A stretch of 64,000 nt of DNA from an uncultured Pelagibacteraceae bacterium. Lineage in GTDB: Bacteria; Pseudomonadota; Alphaproteobacteria; Pelagibacterales; Pelagibacteraceae. The notes under the pieces were generated by a model. That model searched no databases. It was not told the origin of the DNA and saw only the letters and a list, made by a program, of their open reading frames with translations. The position numbers and the translations under genes are program-made. The stretch covers positions 54,068 to 118,067 of the forward strand of contig CACAWY010000004.1 in assembly GCA_902536385.1 (NCBI GenBank), given 5' to 3'. This document shows, one piece after another, positions 10,741 through 39,331 of the stretch (the stretch's first letter is position 1; every line of letters starts with the position of its first letter).

Positions 10741-11112
10741 ATGAGCAATTTTAAAAGTGTTAAAATATTTATGAAAACTTTTGGTCAGGAAGTAAAAGAA
10801 AAAGCTGAGTTTCCAAACGATAAAATTACCATCCTAAGATATGACCTTATTAAAGAGGAACTTGAAGAGTTGAAAGATGCAATAGATAAAAGAGACATCA
10901 AAGAAGTTGCAGATGCTTTAACTGATATACTTTATGTAACCTATGGTGCTGGTCATGCTTTTGGAATAGATTTAGACAAATGTTTCGAAGAGGTACAAAG
11001 TTCAAATATGAGCAAATTAGATAATAATGGAAAACCAATTTACAATGATAAAGGTAAAGTGATGAAAGGTCCAAATTATTTTAAACCAAACTTAAACAAG
11101 TTTGTAGCTTAA
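10741..11112 (+). CDS. MazG-like / phosphoribosyl-ATP pyrophosphohydrolase-superfamily NTP pyrophosphohydrolase
   Basis: [43 protein letters not shown] matches the all-alpha NTP-PPase EExx(12-28)ExxD pattern. Confidence 0.75.
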
Positions 11113-11208: not shown

Positions 11209-11832
11209 CTATTTTGAATTTTTACTTCTAAATTTAATAGACAAAGGGTGTAAATCTCTAGAAGAATTAATTGGTCTTGGCACTGGCAGTTTGAAAGAAT
11301 TTCCATTTGCATTTTTTTTTGATCTCGAACTGATTTTCGAAGGCAATCCTTTAAAATCTTTAAAGTTCATGTCCACAACCTTTTGTCGTCTCATTTTTAT
11401 TGGATAATCTTCTAACCAAACTTTCTCATTCCATTTAGGTATCATTATTTTTAAAAAAGGTTTTAAAATTTTTCTCCAACCATTTAAAAAAAATTTGTAA
11501 TTCATAATTATTTCACAAGAGGAATTTGTTTTAGAGTTGACAGTAATAGTTGTTTTAGATATCACGCCCATTTGTACCGCATATGTGAACAATGTATTTT
11601 CATCATGTTGAACCATAAAGACAGGAGTAAGAAATTTTAAAAATGGAAATGGGACTTTAATATTATCGACTCTAAACATGAAATTATTTTTATCATATAG
11701 AATATCTGATTTTTTATATCCTTCGTGAACAACATCTAAGTGTTCATGATCCCAATAATTCCATAAAGCAACCTCTTTAGAGCAATTGATTTCTTTAATT
11801 ATTTCAACTTCTAATATGTCACTCTCTCTCAT
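11209..11832 (-). CDS. SRPBCC/START-like protein resembling a Rieske oxygenase catalytic domain
   Basis: NYWDHEHLDVVHEGYKK resembles the mononuclear iron Asp/His motif; starts within the upstream Rieske gene. Confidence 0.5.
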   Translation of the reverse strand: MRESDILEVEIIKEINCSKEVALWNYWDHEHLDVVHEGYKKSDILYDKNNFMFRVDNIKVPFPFLKFLTPVFMVQHDENTLFTYAVQMGVISKTTITVNSKTNSSCEIIMNYKFFLNGWRKILKPFLKIMIPKWNEKVWLEDYPIKMRRQKVVDMNFKDFKGLPSKISSRSKKNANGNSFKLPVPRPINSSRDLHPLSIKFRSKNSK

Positions 11833-12190
11833 AAATTAAAAATATCTTATCGTTTTCTAAATTAATATTATATTCTTTTAGTTTATCCGGTTTAACCTCA
11901 AACTCATAAGGGTTTAATCCTAATTTTAATGGATAACTAAGACACTTTCCGGTTTTATTACAAAACTTCCAATTATGCCACTTACATCTCAATAAATCCT
12001 TTTTTTGATCATAAAAAATTTCACCACCAAAATGAGGACAGATAGATGAAAAAACTTTTATATTTTCTTCTTTATCTAAAAAACAAATTATTTCATCTTT
12101 CAGTTCATCAAAAAATTTAATTATATATTTTTTTTTTTTTAATACTCCTAATTTGCATATGAAAATGGAGAACTGTTTATTATTAATCAT
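11819..12190 (-). CDS. Rieske [2Fe-2S] domain protein
   Basis: CPHFGGEIFYDQKKDLLRCKWHNWKF contains CxH...CxxH Rieske ligands. Confidence 0.85.
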   Translation of the reverse strand: MINNKQFSIFICKLGVLKKKKYIIKFFDELKDEIICFLDKEENIKVFSSICPHFGGEIFYDQKKDLLRCKWHNWKFCNKTGKCLSYPLKLGLNPYEFEVKPDKLKEYNINLENDKIFLIYERE

Positions 12191-12198
12191 ATATTTTC

Positions 12199-12223
12199 AG
12201 GGGCGTTTTGTTGCCAGGTACCC
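12199..12223 (+). repeat. Degenerate copy (A) of the ssrA 3'-end sequence: aggggcgttttgttgccaggtaccc
   Basis: Near identity to 13763-13787 (aggggcgttctgttgccaggtgccc). Confidence 0.85.
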
Positions 12224-12377
12224 TTAACCTTTTAACGTTATATAACAATTCAAGATCATAAAAAACGGCTATTTCTTTGCTGGGTGAGACCGTATTGTGC
12301 CCACCAGTGAGTCCGGATAAGATAAGTCCTGTGAAATTAGAATTCAAATACGAACTATCATTTAAATTAATTAGATA

Positions 12378-12764
12378 ATGTACGAATTGTTAGCAAATCT
12401 GACTTTAGTTACTCATTTAATATTTATTTTATTTGTTATTTTTGGTGGAATGTTCTTTTTTATTTTTTCAAAAATTATCTATATTCATATCCCATCATTA
12501 TTATGGGGAATTTATATAGAATTCACTAATTCTGTTTGTCCGTTAACTTATCTAGAGAATTGGTTTTTATATAAAGGTGAGCTGTCAACTTATTCTAATG
12601 ATTTTATTAACAACTATCTTTTTCCAATAATTTATCCTGAGGACTTGACTGCTGAAATTCAAATTTATATTGGTATATCGCTTATACTTATTAATATTTT
12701 AATTTACGGATTAATTTTAAAAAATCTAAAGAATGAAAAAAATTTTAGCGATCATAATTTTTAG
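12378..12764 (+). CDS. DUF2784-like small membrane protein
   Basis: LLWGIYIEFTNSVCPLTYLENWFLYKGE...YLFPIIYPEDLTAEIQI resembles the DUF2784 pattern. Confidence 0.65.
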   Translation: MYELLANLTLVTHLIFILFVIFGGMFFFIFSKIIYIHIPSLLWGIYIEFTNSVCPLTYLENWFLYKGELSTYSNDFINNYLFPIIYPEDLTAEIQIYIGISLILINILIYGLILKNLKNEKNFSDHNF

Positions 12765-13095
12765 TCTCTCAATTTTTGGCAGTTATAATTCAGTTTTAGC
12801 AAATGATTTGATTTGTAGCGATGATAAGAATAGTGAAGTTATAAATATATTTTATAATCAAGACAGAATAGAGATATTAGGCAAAACTTTCACAAATGTC
12901 TTAATTTTTGGAAATGGTGTTTCAGCAGAATACTTTAAATGGAAAACTTCGTTTTTAGGACTCAGGAAGTTATTAGATGAGAGTTGGAAAATAAATTTGG
13001 AATTTTCAAAACCAAAATCAGCCTCAATAATTAAATATAAATATGAAAATGGTGAGCTTAAAAAACTAAGTGAAAGTTCATATTCATGTGAATAA
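12733..13095 (+). CDS. Small secreted protein, unknown function
   Basis: Signal peptide MKKILAIIIFSLSIFGSYNSVLA; stop lies 3 nt before repeat copy B. Confidence 0.6.
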   Translation: MKKILAIIIFSLSIFGSYNSVLANDLICSDDKNSEVINIFYNQDRIEILGKTFTNVLIFGNGVSAEYFKWKTSFLGLRKLLDESWKINLEFSKPKSASIIKYKYENGELKKLSESSYSCE

Positions 13096-13098
13096 TTA

Positions 13099-13120
13099 AG
13101 GGGCGTTCTGTTGCCCGGCA
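13099..13120 (+). repeat. Degenerate copy (B) of the ssrA 3'-end sequence: aggggcgttctgttgcccggca
   Basis: First 17 nt identical to copy C at 13763. Confidence 0.85.
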
Positions 13121-13256
13121 TTAGATTAGAAATTAGCATATTTGCTTACTTTATCAAAATACTTCATTGCAAACTTCATTGCTCGAAGCACTTATTTTCT
13201 TTCTACTTGCTTTTTTGGATATAGCACTTCATTGTAAATTTGATTAAAATTATCAA

Positions 13257-13760
13257 ATGAGAGATTTTGTCCAAAAATATTGGTATTTAGTATTAATATT
13301 TTTTTTATTCTCATATCACTCTTGGTTAATGCAAATGTTTCCTTGGGAAAAACAATTATTAAAATGTAAATTAAAATTCGATAATATCAAAATTTACAAT
13401 GTACCAAAAAATATTGATTTAGAGATAAACGGTTGGGGTACAGGGAAATTTGTTAACAATCAGTATTTTGGATCAAATTCATTTGGAGTAAACACTAATG
13501 GAAGTAATCGTTCAGATTTTTTAGTGAGAGTTTTAGGTTCTTATCAATATGATTTTGAAATACATGTAAAAAAAGATAACTGGGGTTACGAGTTTGGTTA
13601 TACACATTTGTTTTTAATTCCAAAAAAAAGAGAAACCTTTGTAGATAAAAATGGAAATAAAATTAAATTAAAATCTAGGTCTTTATATCTTATGGACATC
13701 TCGTACGATGGTAATGAGAATCCTGAAGCATTATGGGATTGTTTTGATGAATCAATGTAA
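13257..13760 (+). CDS. Membrane-anchored protein, unknown function
   Basis: N-terminal TM helix; intact 167-aa ORF; stop lies 2 nt before repeat copy C. Confidence 0.6.
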   Translation: MRDFVQKYWYLVLIFFLFSYHSWLMQMFPWEKQLLKCKLKFDNIKIYNVPKNIDLEINGWGTGKFVNNQYFGSNSFGVNTNGSNRSDFLVRVLGSYQYDFEIHVKKDNWGYEFGYTHLFLIPKKRETFVDKNGNKIKLKSRSLYLMDISYDGNENPEALWDCFDESM

Positions 13761-13762
13761 GT

Positions 13763-14015
13763 AGGGGCGTTCTGTTGCCAGGTGCCCCGGACCCCGTGAC
13801 TTAATTAACTAGGTTAATTAAGCTGCAAGTGCAAATTTTTGATTTGCATTTATAATTTAGCCCGTTACGTCGGAACTATCTCGAACGAAAAAGCAGCTTT
13901 TAGACACCCGTCGATCCTAATTCACCCCCCTCGAGAAATATTTGGTGGAGGTGGTGGGTACTGCCCCCACGTCCGTGATGTTTATTACGAAACTCGTTTA
14001 TCGTTATAGTTGGTA
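13763..14015 (-). ncRNA. ssrA: Circularly permuted two-piece tmRNA (alphaproteobacterial type): acceptor piece first (3' end CCA at 13943), then ITS 13930-13942, then coding piece (13929 to about 13763)
   Basis: Minus strand: cggacgtgggggcagtacccaccacctccACCA, then about 13 nt, then gggggtgaattaggatcgacgggtg. 7-bp acceptor stem GGGGGTG/CACCTCC. Tag ORF 13847-13818 reads GCA AAT CAA AAA TTT GCA CTT GCA GCT TAA = ANQKFALAA*. The 5' boundary near 14015 is approximate. Confidence 0.93.
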
Positions 14016-14111
14016 AACCAACAATTTATATTATCAAAAATAAGAGAAATTAAAAATAGTTATTCAATTTAATATAATTAAATTTGATTTGGGTATTGGT
14101 TGAAAATTAAA

Positions 14112-14978
14112 TTATTTTAATTGAACAGTGTTTTTAACAAATCTATTAAAATAAATTGCGTCTTTTTGTGTTTTTATCAAATATAAATTCATACAATTAA
14201 GAATAGCAAATAAAACTATTACAAAATATAAAATATCGGTTTCTTTAAAAAAAACGAAAAACGCAAAAATAAAAAATAATGATCTTAAGAAAAATATAAA
14301 GCTAAAAACATTAATAATATTCAATGAGTGCATTATTAAAAATTTGAAATTAGCCTTAGATTTACCTTGATACCGAATTTCTTTTTTTACAGGGATCTTT
14401 ATTATTTCCGAAAATTTTGTAACACTAGAACAAAAAGCAGAGTAGGTTTCTTTTTGATTAATAATTTTTTTTAAATTACTGAAATTAAAGCAACTAAAGT
14501 TACCATAATCAATATATTTTCCGGTCATCATAAATGTAAAAATTAATCTTAAATTATTTAAAAATTTTAATATAAAATTTTCTTTTCTTGAGGCTCTGGA
14601 TGCAAACACAAATTTTTCTTTATTTTTATCTAAAGTTTCTAACATTTTGTTTAAAGCAAAAGGGCTATCTTCACCGTCAGAGTCCATAACAATTATTTTT
14701 GAGATATTTTTCTTTTTTGACAAGAATCTAAGACCTAAAGCTATAGCTATTTGATTTCCGCAATTTTGTTTAAGGTTCAAAATTTCAATTTTTTTAATTT
14801 TTTTTAAATTTTTAATGTCCAAACGACTTTTCTTTGAAGAATTATCGTTCACTATTAAAGCATTAAAATTAATCGACATTTTTTTCGCTTGGTTGTCAAT
14901 ATATCTAAAAAGTTTATTGAGCGATGCCCAATCATTATAAACTGGTAGTAAAATAATAATTTTTTTCTTAGAATTCAT
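14112..14978 (-). CDS. Family 2 glycosyltransferase (polyprenyl-phosphate glycosyltransferase-like) with C-terminal TM segments
   Basis: IIILLPVYNDWASL, ALIVNDNSS, IIVMDSDGEDSP motifs. Confidence 0.85.
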   Translation of the reverse strand: MNSKKKIIILLPVYNDWASLNKLFRYIDNQAKKMSINFNALIVNDNSSKKSRLDIKNLKKIKKIEILNLKQNCGNQIAIALGLRFLSKKKNISKIIVMDSDGEDSPFALNKMLETLDKNKEKFVFASRASRKENFILKFLNNLRLIFTFMMTGKYIDYGNFSCFNFSNLKKIINQKETYSAFCSSVTKFSEIIKIPVKKEIRYQGKSKANFKFLIMHSLNIINVFSFIFFLRSLFFIFAFFVFFKETDILYFVIVLFAILNCMNLYLIKTQKDAIYFNRFVKNTVQLK

Positions 14979-15073
14979 TTTTTGTATGATCTGATTATCT
15001 TATAGAAATTGTTGATAACGTAAAGAATCTTATTGTTCAAAATTTTTTATCTGAAATAATGATTTTATTTCAT

Positions 15074-16021
15074 ATGAAATTATCAAATTCTCAAAAGCAA
15101 GAAATTGCAGAGCAACAATCACAAAAAAACTCTACAAAGAGAGTTACTTCTCCAGAATTAGAAAAAATTCTTTATGAAGCTTTACCAGTTTTAGATCATG
15201 GTTTTGTAAGAGTAGTAGATTATATGGGCGATGATAGTTCGATTGTTCAATCTGCAAGAGTTTCATATGGAAAAGGAACTAAGAAAGTTTCAACAGATGA
15301 GGGATTAATAAAATATCTAATGAGACATTGGCACTCAACCCCCTTTGAAATGTGTGAAATAAAATATCATGTCAAACTGCCAATATTTATTGCTCGTCAA
15401 TGGATTAGACATAGAACTGCTAATGTAAATGAGTATTCAGCAAGGTATTCTATCTTAGATAAAGAATTTTATATTCCATCAAAAGATCAATTATCAGCAC
15501 AATCTATTTCTAATCGCCAAGGAAGGGGAGATTTAATAACAGGTGAACAGGCTGATGAGGTATTACAAATTTTAAAAGATGACGCAACAAGAACTTACAA
15601 CAATTATGAGAAGATGTTAAATGAGAGATATGATGGGACTAAAATTGATGAGCGCAAAGCTGGTTTAGCAAGGGAACTTGCTAGAATGAATTTAACATTA
15701 AATTCCTACACACAATGGTATTGGAAAACTGACTTATTAAATTTATTGAATTTTTTATTTCTTAGAGCAGATAGTCATGCACAATATGAAATAAGAGTTT
15801 ATGCTGAGGTAATGTTAGACACAGTAAAAAGATGGGTGCCAATTACCCATGCAGCTTTTTTAGATTATAGAGTAGGCGCTGTACATGTTTCAGCTAAAGG
15901 AAAAAAAGTTATTCAACAAATGGTTAAAGGCGAAAAAATTTCATATGAAAACTCAGGATTATCAAAAAGAGAGTGGAATGAGCTGATGACATCGTTTGGG
16001 TTTAACAACAAAATTATCTAA
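15074..16021 (+). CDS. thyX: FAD-dependent thymidylate synthase; start likely the internal ATG at 15074
   Basis: [43 protein letters not shown] contains the ThyX RHRxxSxNExSxRY-like motif. Confidence 0.93.
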
Positions 16022-39204: not shown

Positions 39205-39261
39205 TTTTTCTCCGTTTTTCTGGAGAAGTATGAACGAAGTTAAATTCTGTTCATCTTCTCC
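39198..39261 (-). promoter_or_regulatory. Alternative-hairpin region: segment 1 GGAGAAGATGAAC (39261-39249), segment 2 CGTTCATACTTCTCC (39236-39222), segment 3 GGAGAAAAAATGAACG (39213-39198)
   Basis: Segment 2 is complementary to both segment 1 (13 bp, 1 bulge) and segment 3 (6+7 bp); each partner contains a GGAG and an ATG. Confidence 0.65.
39240..39254 (-). CDS. Candidate 4-codon leader ORF (uORF1) MNRI immediately after SAM-V
   Basis: AAAAAGGAGAAG ATG AAC AGA ATT TAA; SD spacing is short, about 3-4 nt. Confidence 0.3.
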   Translation of the reverse strand: MNRI

Positions 39262-39314
39262 TTTTTAGTACTTCGGCATATGCCAGGCGTACAATATGGT
39301 TCAAATGCCTGGTT
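39258..39314 (-). promoter_or_regulatory. SAM-V riboswitch aptamer
   Basis: ccaggcatttgaaccatattgtacgcctggcatatgccgaagtactaaaaaggag matches the remembered SAM-V consensus; upstream of metY. Confidence 0.85.
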
Positions 39315-39331
39315 TAATTTTAGATTTTTCC

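Follow-up and report, generated by a model that had tools for sequence, protein, structure and literature searches.

How did the short gene-bearing units next to ssrA in SAR11 get there, and by which kind of enzyme? SAR11 are the most abundant bacteria of the ocean, and their cells are streamlined. The question arises from a stretch of 64,000 nt of an uncultured Pelagibacteraceae bacterium (GCA_902536385.1, contig CACAWY010000004.1, 54,068 to 118,067, forward strand), called the window here. According to the original prediction for this DNA, three direct repeats of the ssrA 3' end delimit two units without an integrase, which would be either mini-cassettes mobilised in trans or remnants. Our analyses indicate that they are probably mini-elements without an integrase of their own, which tyrosine integrases, mostly acting in trans, have inserted at ssrA.

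The window contains three copies of the ssrA 3' end

The three copies (~24 nt) all lie on the same strand at spacings of 900 and 664 bp, which verifies the predicted repeats and the two units between them (Table 1). Their 16-nt core, GGGGCGTTYTGTTGCC, has three exact matches in the window, against 0.00 expected from shuffles, and no others in the 974-kb draft genome. The copy at 13763 is the physical 3' end of the gene. The last segment of the permuted ssrA is the pseudoknot of the coding piece and not the T-arm, as had been predicted, and the alpha_tmRNA match at 13760-14059 agrees with this. ssrA itself is intact and a direct repeat of its end is present at the distal border, as in islands located at the ends of tRNA or tmRNA genes.

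Table 1. Features of the ssrA array and its surroundings in the window
Feature	Position	Strand	Remarks
PRA-PH domain gene	10741..11112	+	Left neighbour of array; Pfam PRA-PH
Small hydrophobic ORF, 26 aa	11112..11192	+	Directly after PRA-PH, array begins beyond; sequence reading
207-aa gene and Rieske protein gene	11209..12190	-	Probably older cargo
Repeat 1	12199..12223	+	Displaced copy of ssrA 3' end; repeat comparison
Unit 1, 900 bp	12200..13099	+	Class A leader, DUF2784 gene, gene for small secreted protein
Class A arm-type repeats TGAGACC, TGTGCCC, TGAGTCC	12285..12314	+	Putative; +85, +96, +108 from core start
DUF2784 membrane protein gene	12378..12764	+	Cargo; E 1.5e-30
Gene for probable secreted protein, 120 aa	12733..13095	+	Cargo; stop 3 nt before repeat 2
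Repeat 2	13099..13121	+	Displaced copy of ssrA 3' end, class C right half; repeat comparison
Unit 2, 664 bp	13100..13763	+	Class C leader and one gene
Class C arm-type repeats ACTTCATTG	13161, 13173, 13226 (13161..13234)	+	Putative; +61, +73, +126
Gene for probable membrane-anchored protein, 167 aa	13257..13760	+	Cargo; stop 2 nt before ssrA repeat
ssrA, permuted two-piece tmRNA gene	13760..14059	-	Rfam alpha_tmRNA 213 bits, ARAGORN
Repeat 3	13763..13787	+	Genuine ssrA 3' end; proposed attachment site (attB), array anchor
thyX	15059..16021	+	Right neighbour of ssrA in relatives

The genes of the units run on the plus strand, and the stops of 12733-13095 and 13257-13760 fall 2-3 nt short of a repeat, in line with the original prediction. 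The 120-aa protein of unit 1 has a relative (65% identity) in the array of locus L062, and the 167-aa protein of unit 2 has no match in Pfam or NCBIfam. The proposal that excision of both units would restore an ancestral tract, with the Rieske gene next to ssrA, had to be given up: relatives have fumC and PRA-PH at this place and neither the Rieske nor the 207-aa gene. The Rieske and 207-aa genes therefore look like older cargo and not like the ancestral border; no recognisable core is left of them. The 26-aa hydrophobic ORF is also present in all three relatives inspected (L051, L059 and L072). On the other side, the window has a glycosyltransferase 2 gene (14112-14978) between ssrA and thyX, two genes that are almost contiguous in many relatives and separated by 1-2.5 kb in others. 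Further along the window, a SAM-V riboswitch is located at 39255-39319 on the minus strand.

Polar arrays at ssrA are widespread in SAR11

The core is present in 137 of 169 genomes of the same genus, many of which contain several copies on one contig, and in 13 of the 14 Pelagibacteraceae genera sampled, with arrays in several of them. The surroundings of ssrA were extracted from about 60 genomes, mostly drafts in which assembly can break arrays. In relatives, the arrays stand in a constant frame in the order fumC, PRA-PH, array, ssrA and thyX, and PRA-PH is found at the same place in nearly all those whose contig reaches that far. At 63 ssrA-anchored SAR11 loci we counted 217 core copies, 1-8 per locus, of which one is on the opposite strand. 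The conserved block extends from -1 to about +22 and has a sharp boundary at the ssrA 3' end. Mismatches in the core increase with the distance from ssrA (Spearman 0.25, p 0.002), which fits the expectation that new units enter at ssrA.

The units range in length from 124 bp to about 7.6 kb, most of them having a few hundred bases to 3 kb. Small cassettes stacked at ssrA, whose content differs among close relatives, are what is expected of an additive flexible genomic island. The comparison of ssrA flanks that the original prediction had called for thus revealed other cargo and other repeat numbers; the close relatives do not all have the identical arrangement with vertically inherited cargo, which it had named as the case against itself. 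An excised circle was not observed, nor was a precise pair of an empty and an occupied site among the ssrA loci compared. Some of the shortest units (124-135 bp; L072 7415-7539, L040 6845-6980 and L050 5658-5782) seem, by eye, to have a single minus-strand ORF for a hydrophobic microprotein (~30 aa) and nothing else.

Units are shared between diverged genomes

Most units carry one to three genes. Clustering of the 159 ORFs predicted in units of the 40 loci extracted first gave 115 clusters, and array cargo includes HindIII-type and type III restriction-modification systems, DNA methylases, superoxide dismutase, trypsin-like peptidases, an FkbM methyltransferase and many unknowns. DUF2784 is the commonest cargo family; a median dN/dS of 0.18 over 20 copies indicates purifying selection.

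Between genomes with 72-85% identity in fumC, PRA-PH and thyX, whole units reach 97-99.6% identity, their non-coding parts included; sequence comparison thus points clearly to horizontal sharing of entire units. One 272-bp unit recurs in four genomes, where its neighbours differ; in one of them it lies outside the ssrA locus, near a tRNA-Leu gene. Moreover, unrelated cargo genes have leader and tail modules in common.

Units carry arm-type repeats in an attP-like arrangement

Just inside their ends, many units contain short repeated motifs, which were picked out by inspection and which we consider putative integrase binding sites. The two units of the window have such motifs in their leaders (Table 1). 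The plus strand of the 64 kb contains only three copies of ACTTCATTG, all in the leader of unit 2; a 9-mer occurring three times was found in 4 of 5000 random 125-bp stretches. The distances to the core recur within classes. Counted over 42 units, class A has TGAGTCC-like arms at +85/+96/+108/+123 in the leader and at -64/-53 in the tail. Leader arms of classes C, D and E are located at +60/+72/+117-126, and tail arms of classes D and E at -80/-69/-57. The leader and the tail of the same unit have 9-mers in common in 30 of 126 units, compared with a mean of 8 and a maximum of 14 in shuffles. One unit of 149 bp consists of arms and core alone, without cargo.

Arms on both sides at fixed distances, as expected of a lambda-type attP site, were found in many units of classes A, B and D and in the large unit described below. 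Because such a unit has arms at both ends, it would, once circularised, have the layout of a lambda-type attP. The attachment-site logic of the original prediction is therefore retained, and the arm-type repeats that make the units attP-like modules are what it overlooked. No tail arms were found in units 1 and 2 of the window, which keep arms only on the leader side and may thus be fixed by now. Class C units generally lack tail arms, and many compact units have no arms at all; some of these one-armed or arm-less units may be dead, or may move by another route.

One unit at ssrA encodes a divergent tyrosine integrase

The arrays of 114 genomes gave no match to Phage_integrase (PF00589), and neither Pfam nor NCBIfam revealed an integrase gene in the units of the window. 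Its contig is also devoid of Phage_integrase matches, the two of this genome being on contigs C3 and C7. PF00589 misses divergent integrases, including the family described next, so the predicted absence of an integrase from the window holds at the sensitivity of this model.

Only one unit was found to carry an integrase gene of its own. In the single-cell genome AG-349-M05 (G034), a 7569-bp unit (L190) adjoins ssrA and encodes a 409-aa protein and a small serine resolvase. The leader of this unit contains two copies of the arm GGTACATAGT and the tail three, arranged in class D geometry. The 409-aa protein is not recognised by Pfam or PHROGs. Its relatives from other genera, at 32-36% identity, give weak matches to Phage_integrase and/or the SAM-like domain of the latter, and R235, Y342xxR345 and Y377 are invariant. 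A profile of the family has a Xer-type recombinase as its best PDB match, and the predicted fold is most similar to Tn1549 integrase, XerA, XerH, Cre and lambda integrase. Prediction from the single sequence gave a pLDDT of 39; in the model from a four-sequence alignment (58 overall) the catalytic part is usable with moderate confidence, and TM-scores are low because the domains are poorly placed. Judging from the Pfam matches of its relatives, the invariant residues and the modelled fold, the protein is a divergent tyrosine integrase.

Between a class E core and ssrA, genus g4 (L193) has a remnant of the same integrase (66% identity, with an in-frame stop), and the left end of that element is 73% identical to the AG-349-M05 element. 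An intact copy and a remnant, both at ssrA, imply that this integrase family entered ssrA at least twice. An intact integrase is found in one array only, and none was found for arm classes A to D in the arrays examined. PF00239 matches, present in 2 of 75 genomes, are both small resolvases, one of them that of the AG-349-M05 unit; a large serine integrase of the Dehalococcoides type (540 aa) was not found in the 75 genomes. The original prediction was largely right that an integrase is needed in trans, and it overlooked that an integrase-bearing unit exists at this very site. Contig C7 of the window's own genome (G000) contains, at a tRNA-Leu(caa) gene (L122 2455-5631), genes for an integrase (418 aa), a serine recombinase and a lipoprotein (148 aa), the latter two resembling those of the AG-349-M05 element.

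Searches for a helper elsewhere

The original prediction suggested looking in pelagiphages for integrases with this attachment core. Searches of IMG/VR and INPHARED with core, arm and attP sequences did not yield a helper phage; the matches were phages with a permuted ssrA gene of their own or chance matches. The 3' region of a permuted ssrA is also present on several AT-rich viral contigs (L105-L108, L111, L112, L114 and L117, one of 242 kb), which suggests that certain marine phages have a tmRNA gene of the alphaproteobacterial type. The TGTGATC-type tail-arm motif occurs 12 times in 247 genomes, each time on a contig with a mapped core (most checked against core coordinates), and gave no helper elsewhere in them.

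A single tyrosine recombinase, 304-327 aa long, is encoded in most of the SAR11 genomes tested (for example L081 1138-2091 and L089 1456-2370, the latter next to a gene resembling a glycosyltransferase). We considered it as the enzyme of the arrays and do not favour it: it has no arm-binding domain, and it scores far below the XerC/XerD cut-offs. Its score of 35-38 bits compares with an integron cut-off of 265. If it has a role, this would most plausibly be with the arm-less compact units.

Arrays away from ssrA

Core copies outside ssrA in the complete genome G214 were considered as a 34-kb prophage, an idea that was dropped when the region read as separate small units. In genome G109 (L135 5662-17543), a set of the same cassettes terminates not at ssrA but at the tRNA-Thr(tgt) 3' end. 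This tRNA gene is followed by GGGACGTTCTGTTGTC, which two other genomes lack next to the corresponding tRNA gene. A second type of array is located upstream of tRNA-Leu(taa) (L126 5644-8085 and L130 673-6130), with repeats of the 5' half of the tRNA and with arms GTCTCA on one side and ACTAGGAG on the other; no integrase was noticed among the intervening genes. Pelagiphages HTVC105P and S35C6 have the same tRNA-Leu segment beside an integrase gene, but with other arms.

Proposed mechanism and alternatives

In the mechanism that we propose, the repeats would be attachment sites, and a unit would comprise an ssrA-end core, arm-type sites just inside its ends, and cargo. Recombination between the ssrA 3' end and a circular unit would be catalysed by a tyrosine integrase. 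The tmRNA would remain intact because the unit brings its own copy of the ssrA end, and the old end would be displaced outward at each insertion, yielding a polar array. As nearly all units have no integrase gene, the enzyme would have to act in trans, provided by rare integrase-bearing elements of the same family, such as the one at ssrA in AG-349-M05, or by phages; this process is presumably active at present. The evidence thus supports the trans-mobilised mini-cassettes of the original prediction, its remnants being kept as a rival. We see an even chance that the arrays form part of a population-wide SAR11 pool of integrase-less cassettes, which would move in and out of ssrA and other sites such as the tRNA-Thr end with integrases borrowed in passing from rare elements or phages. 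This would be an integron-like exchange in which lambda-type attP modules of several arm specificities use one attachment site.

That the units are nothing but remnants seems rather unlikely. Integrase-bearing elements would have entered ssrA one after another and lost the integrase by deletion, leaving fossils that no longer move. Such a history would account for the integrase remnant in L193, with its left end related to the AG-349-M05 element, and for arms at one end only in the window and class C units. It does not readily explain why many units have arms at two ends in exact geometry and modules nearly identical across genera, and fossils would still need some mobility to appear as 97-99.6% identical units in diverged genomes. 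Homologous recombination via common leaders, tails and flanks, the ssrA repeats being traces of rare old insertions, is an improbable source of the arrays. The homology that units have in their leaders and tails (~100 bp each) would permit recombination, and the cargo-free 149-bp unit resembles the product of a recombination between leader and tail arms. However, the identical 272-bp unit has different neighbours and occurs also at a place other than ssrA, and the cores are kept precisely at the unit borders, almost all in one orientation.

We consider it very improbable that the locus is a true integron, with folded single-stranded attC sites and an integron integrase. Tandem cassettes, a single insertion point, a polar array and stops abutting the repeat would all fit an integron, but the three composite attachment sites show no unusual single-strand folding (z 0.26, -1.0 and -0.3), the units have double-strand arm repeats and in many cases a leader of their own, and the Phage_integrase matches of these genomes are all outside the arrays. 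Least probable of all is that the repeats are an RNA structure or terminator of unrelated genes and not attachment sites. The copy in ssrA does fold well (z -3.1); against this, the repeats are an exact ssrA end positioned at unit borders, lose the right arm of the stem away from ssrA, and with few exceptions share one locus and one orientation.

On our preferred reading, that of mini-elements moved mostly by integrases in trans, SAR11 cells appear to swap genes in an integron-like manner with an enzyme supplied from elsewhere. Through a fixed cassette array at ssrA, whose cargo includes restriction-modification and many unknown genes, SAR11 would have a concrete route of gene exchange, and the turnover of genes, their mobility and defence against phages could be measured directly at this site in metagenomic reads. 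The design of the modules, an attP without int and with many arm classes around one core, would be a clear case of elements living off the integrase of others.

Comparison with known systems

Integron signatures had been sought in four SAR11 hypervariable regions and none were found (PMC2217521). We found no published report of the ssrA array in SAR11, in a search that reached few subscription papers. Like integrons, the SAR11 arrays are polar, grow at one site and have the integrase apart from the cassettes; unlike them, they have double-strand lambda-type arms, no attC-like folding at the three composite sites, and no IntI-type or PF00589 match in the arrays. The attP architecture, the integration at a tRNA or tmRNA end and the tyrosine integrase of the AG-349-M05 unit are reminiscent of lambda-type elements and tycheposons, from which the arrays differ in that nearly all units have no integrase and carry small cargo only. 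Tycheposons, as characterised in the relevant passage of PMC10872708, have a tRNA border and a tyrosine recombinase and measure 4-200 kb, whereas the units of the window have 664-900 bp, lack a recombinase and end at a tmRNA gene.

In Dehalococcoides, tandem islands downstream of ssrA are likewise bounded by ssrA repeats (20 bp), and some have no integrase and are thought to be cis-mobilisable (PMC3146451). Those islands have the serine recombinase DsiB, insertion at a T-loop segment and multi-gene integration modules (PMC3146451), in contrast to the tyrosine-type arms of the SAR11 units and their size of mostly a few hundred bases to 3 kb. A further likeness is with 'Ca. Actinomarinales' and fGI-2 of 'Ca. 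Methylopumilus', streamlined aquatic bacteria in which, according to the passages concerned, small cassettes with direct repeats of a gene end also accumulate at that gene, the repeats being the end of a tRNA gene (PMC7771536, PMC10872708). In SAR11 the end used is that of the permuted ssrA coding piece, at a locus fixed across the group, and there are attP-like arm modules and an integrase-bearing unit, features that those passages of PMC7771536 and PMC10872708 do not describe. The SAR11 arrays belong with the additive islands seeded by tRNA and tmRNA genes, a known kind of which they are a distinct variant.
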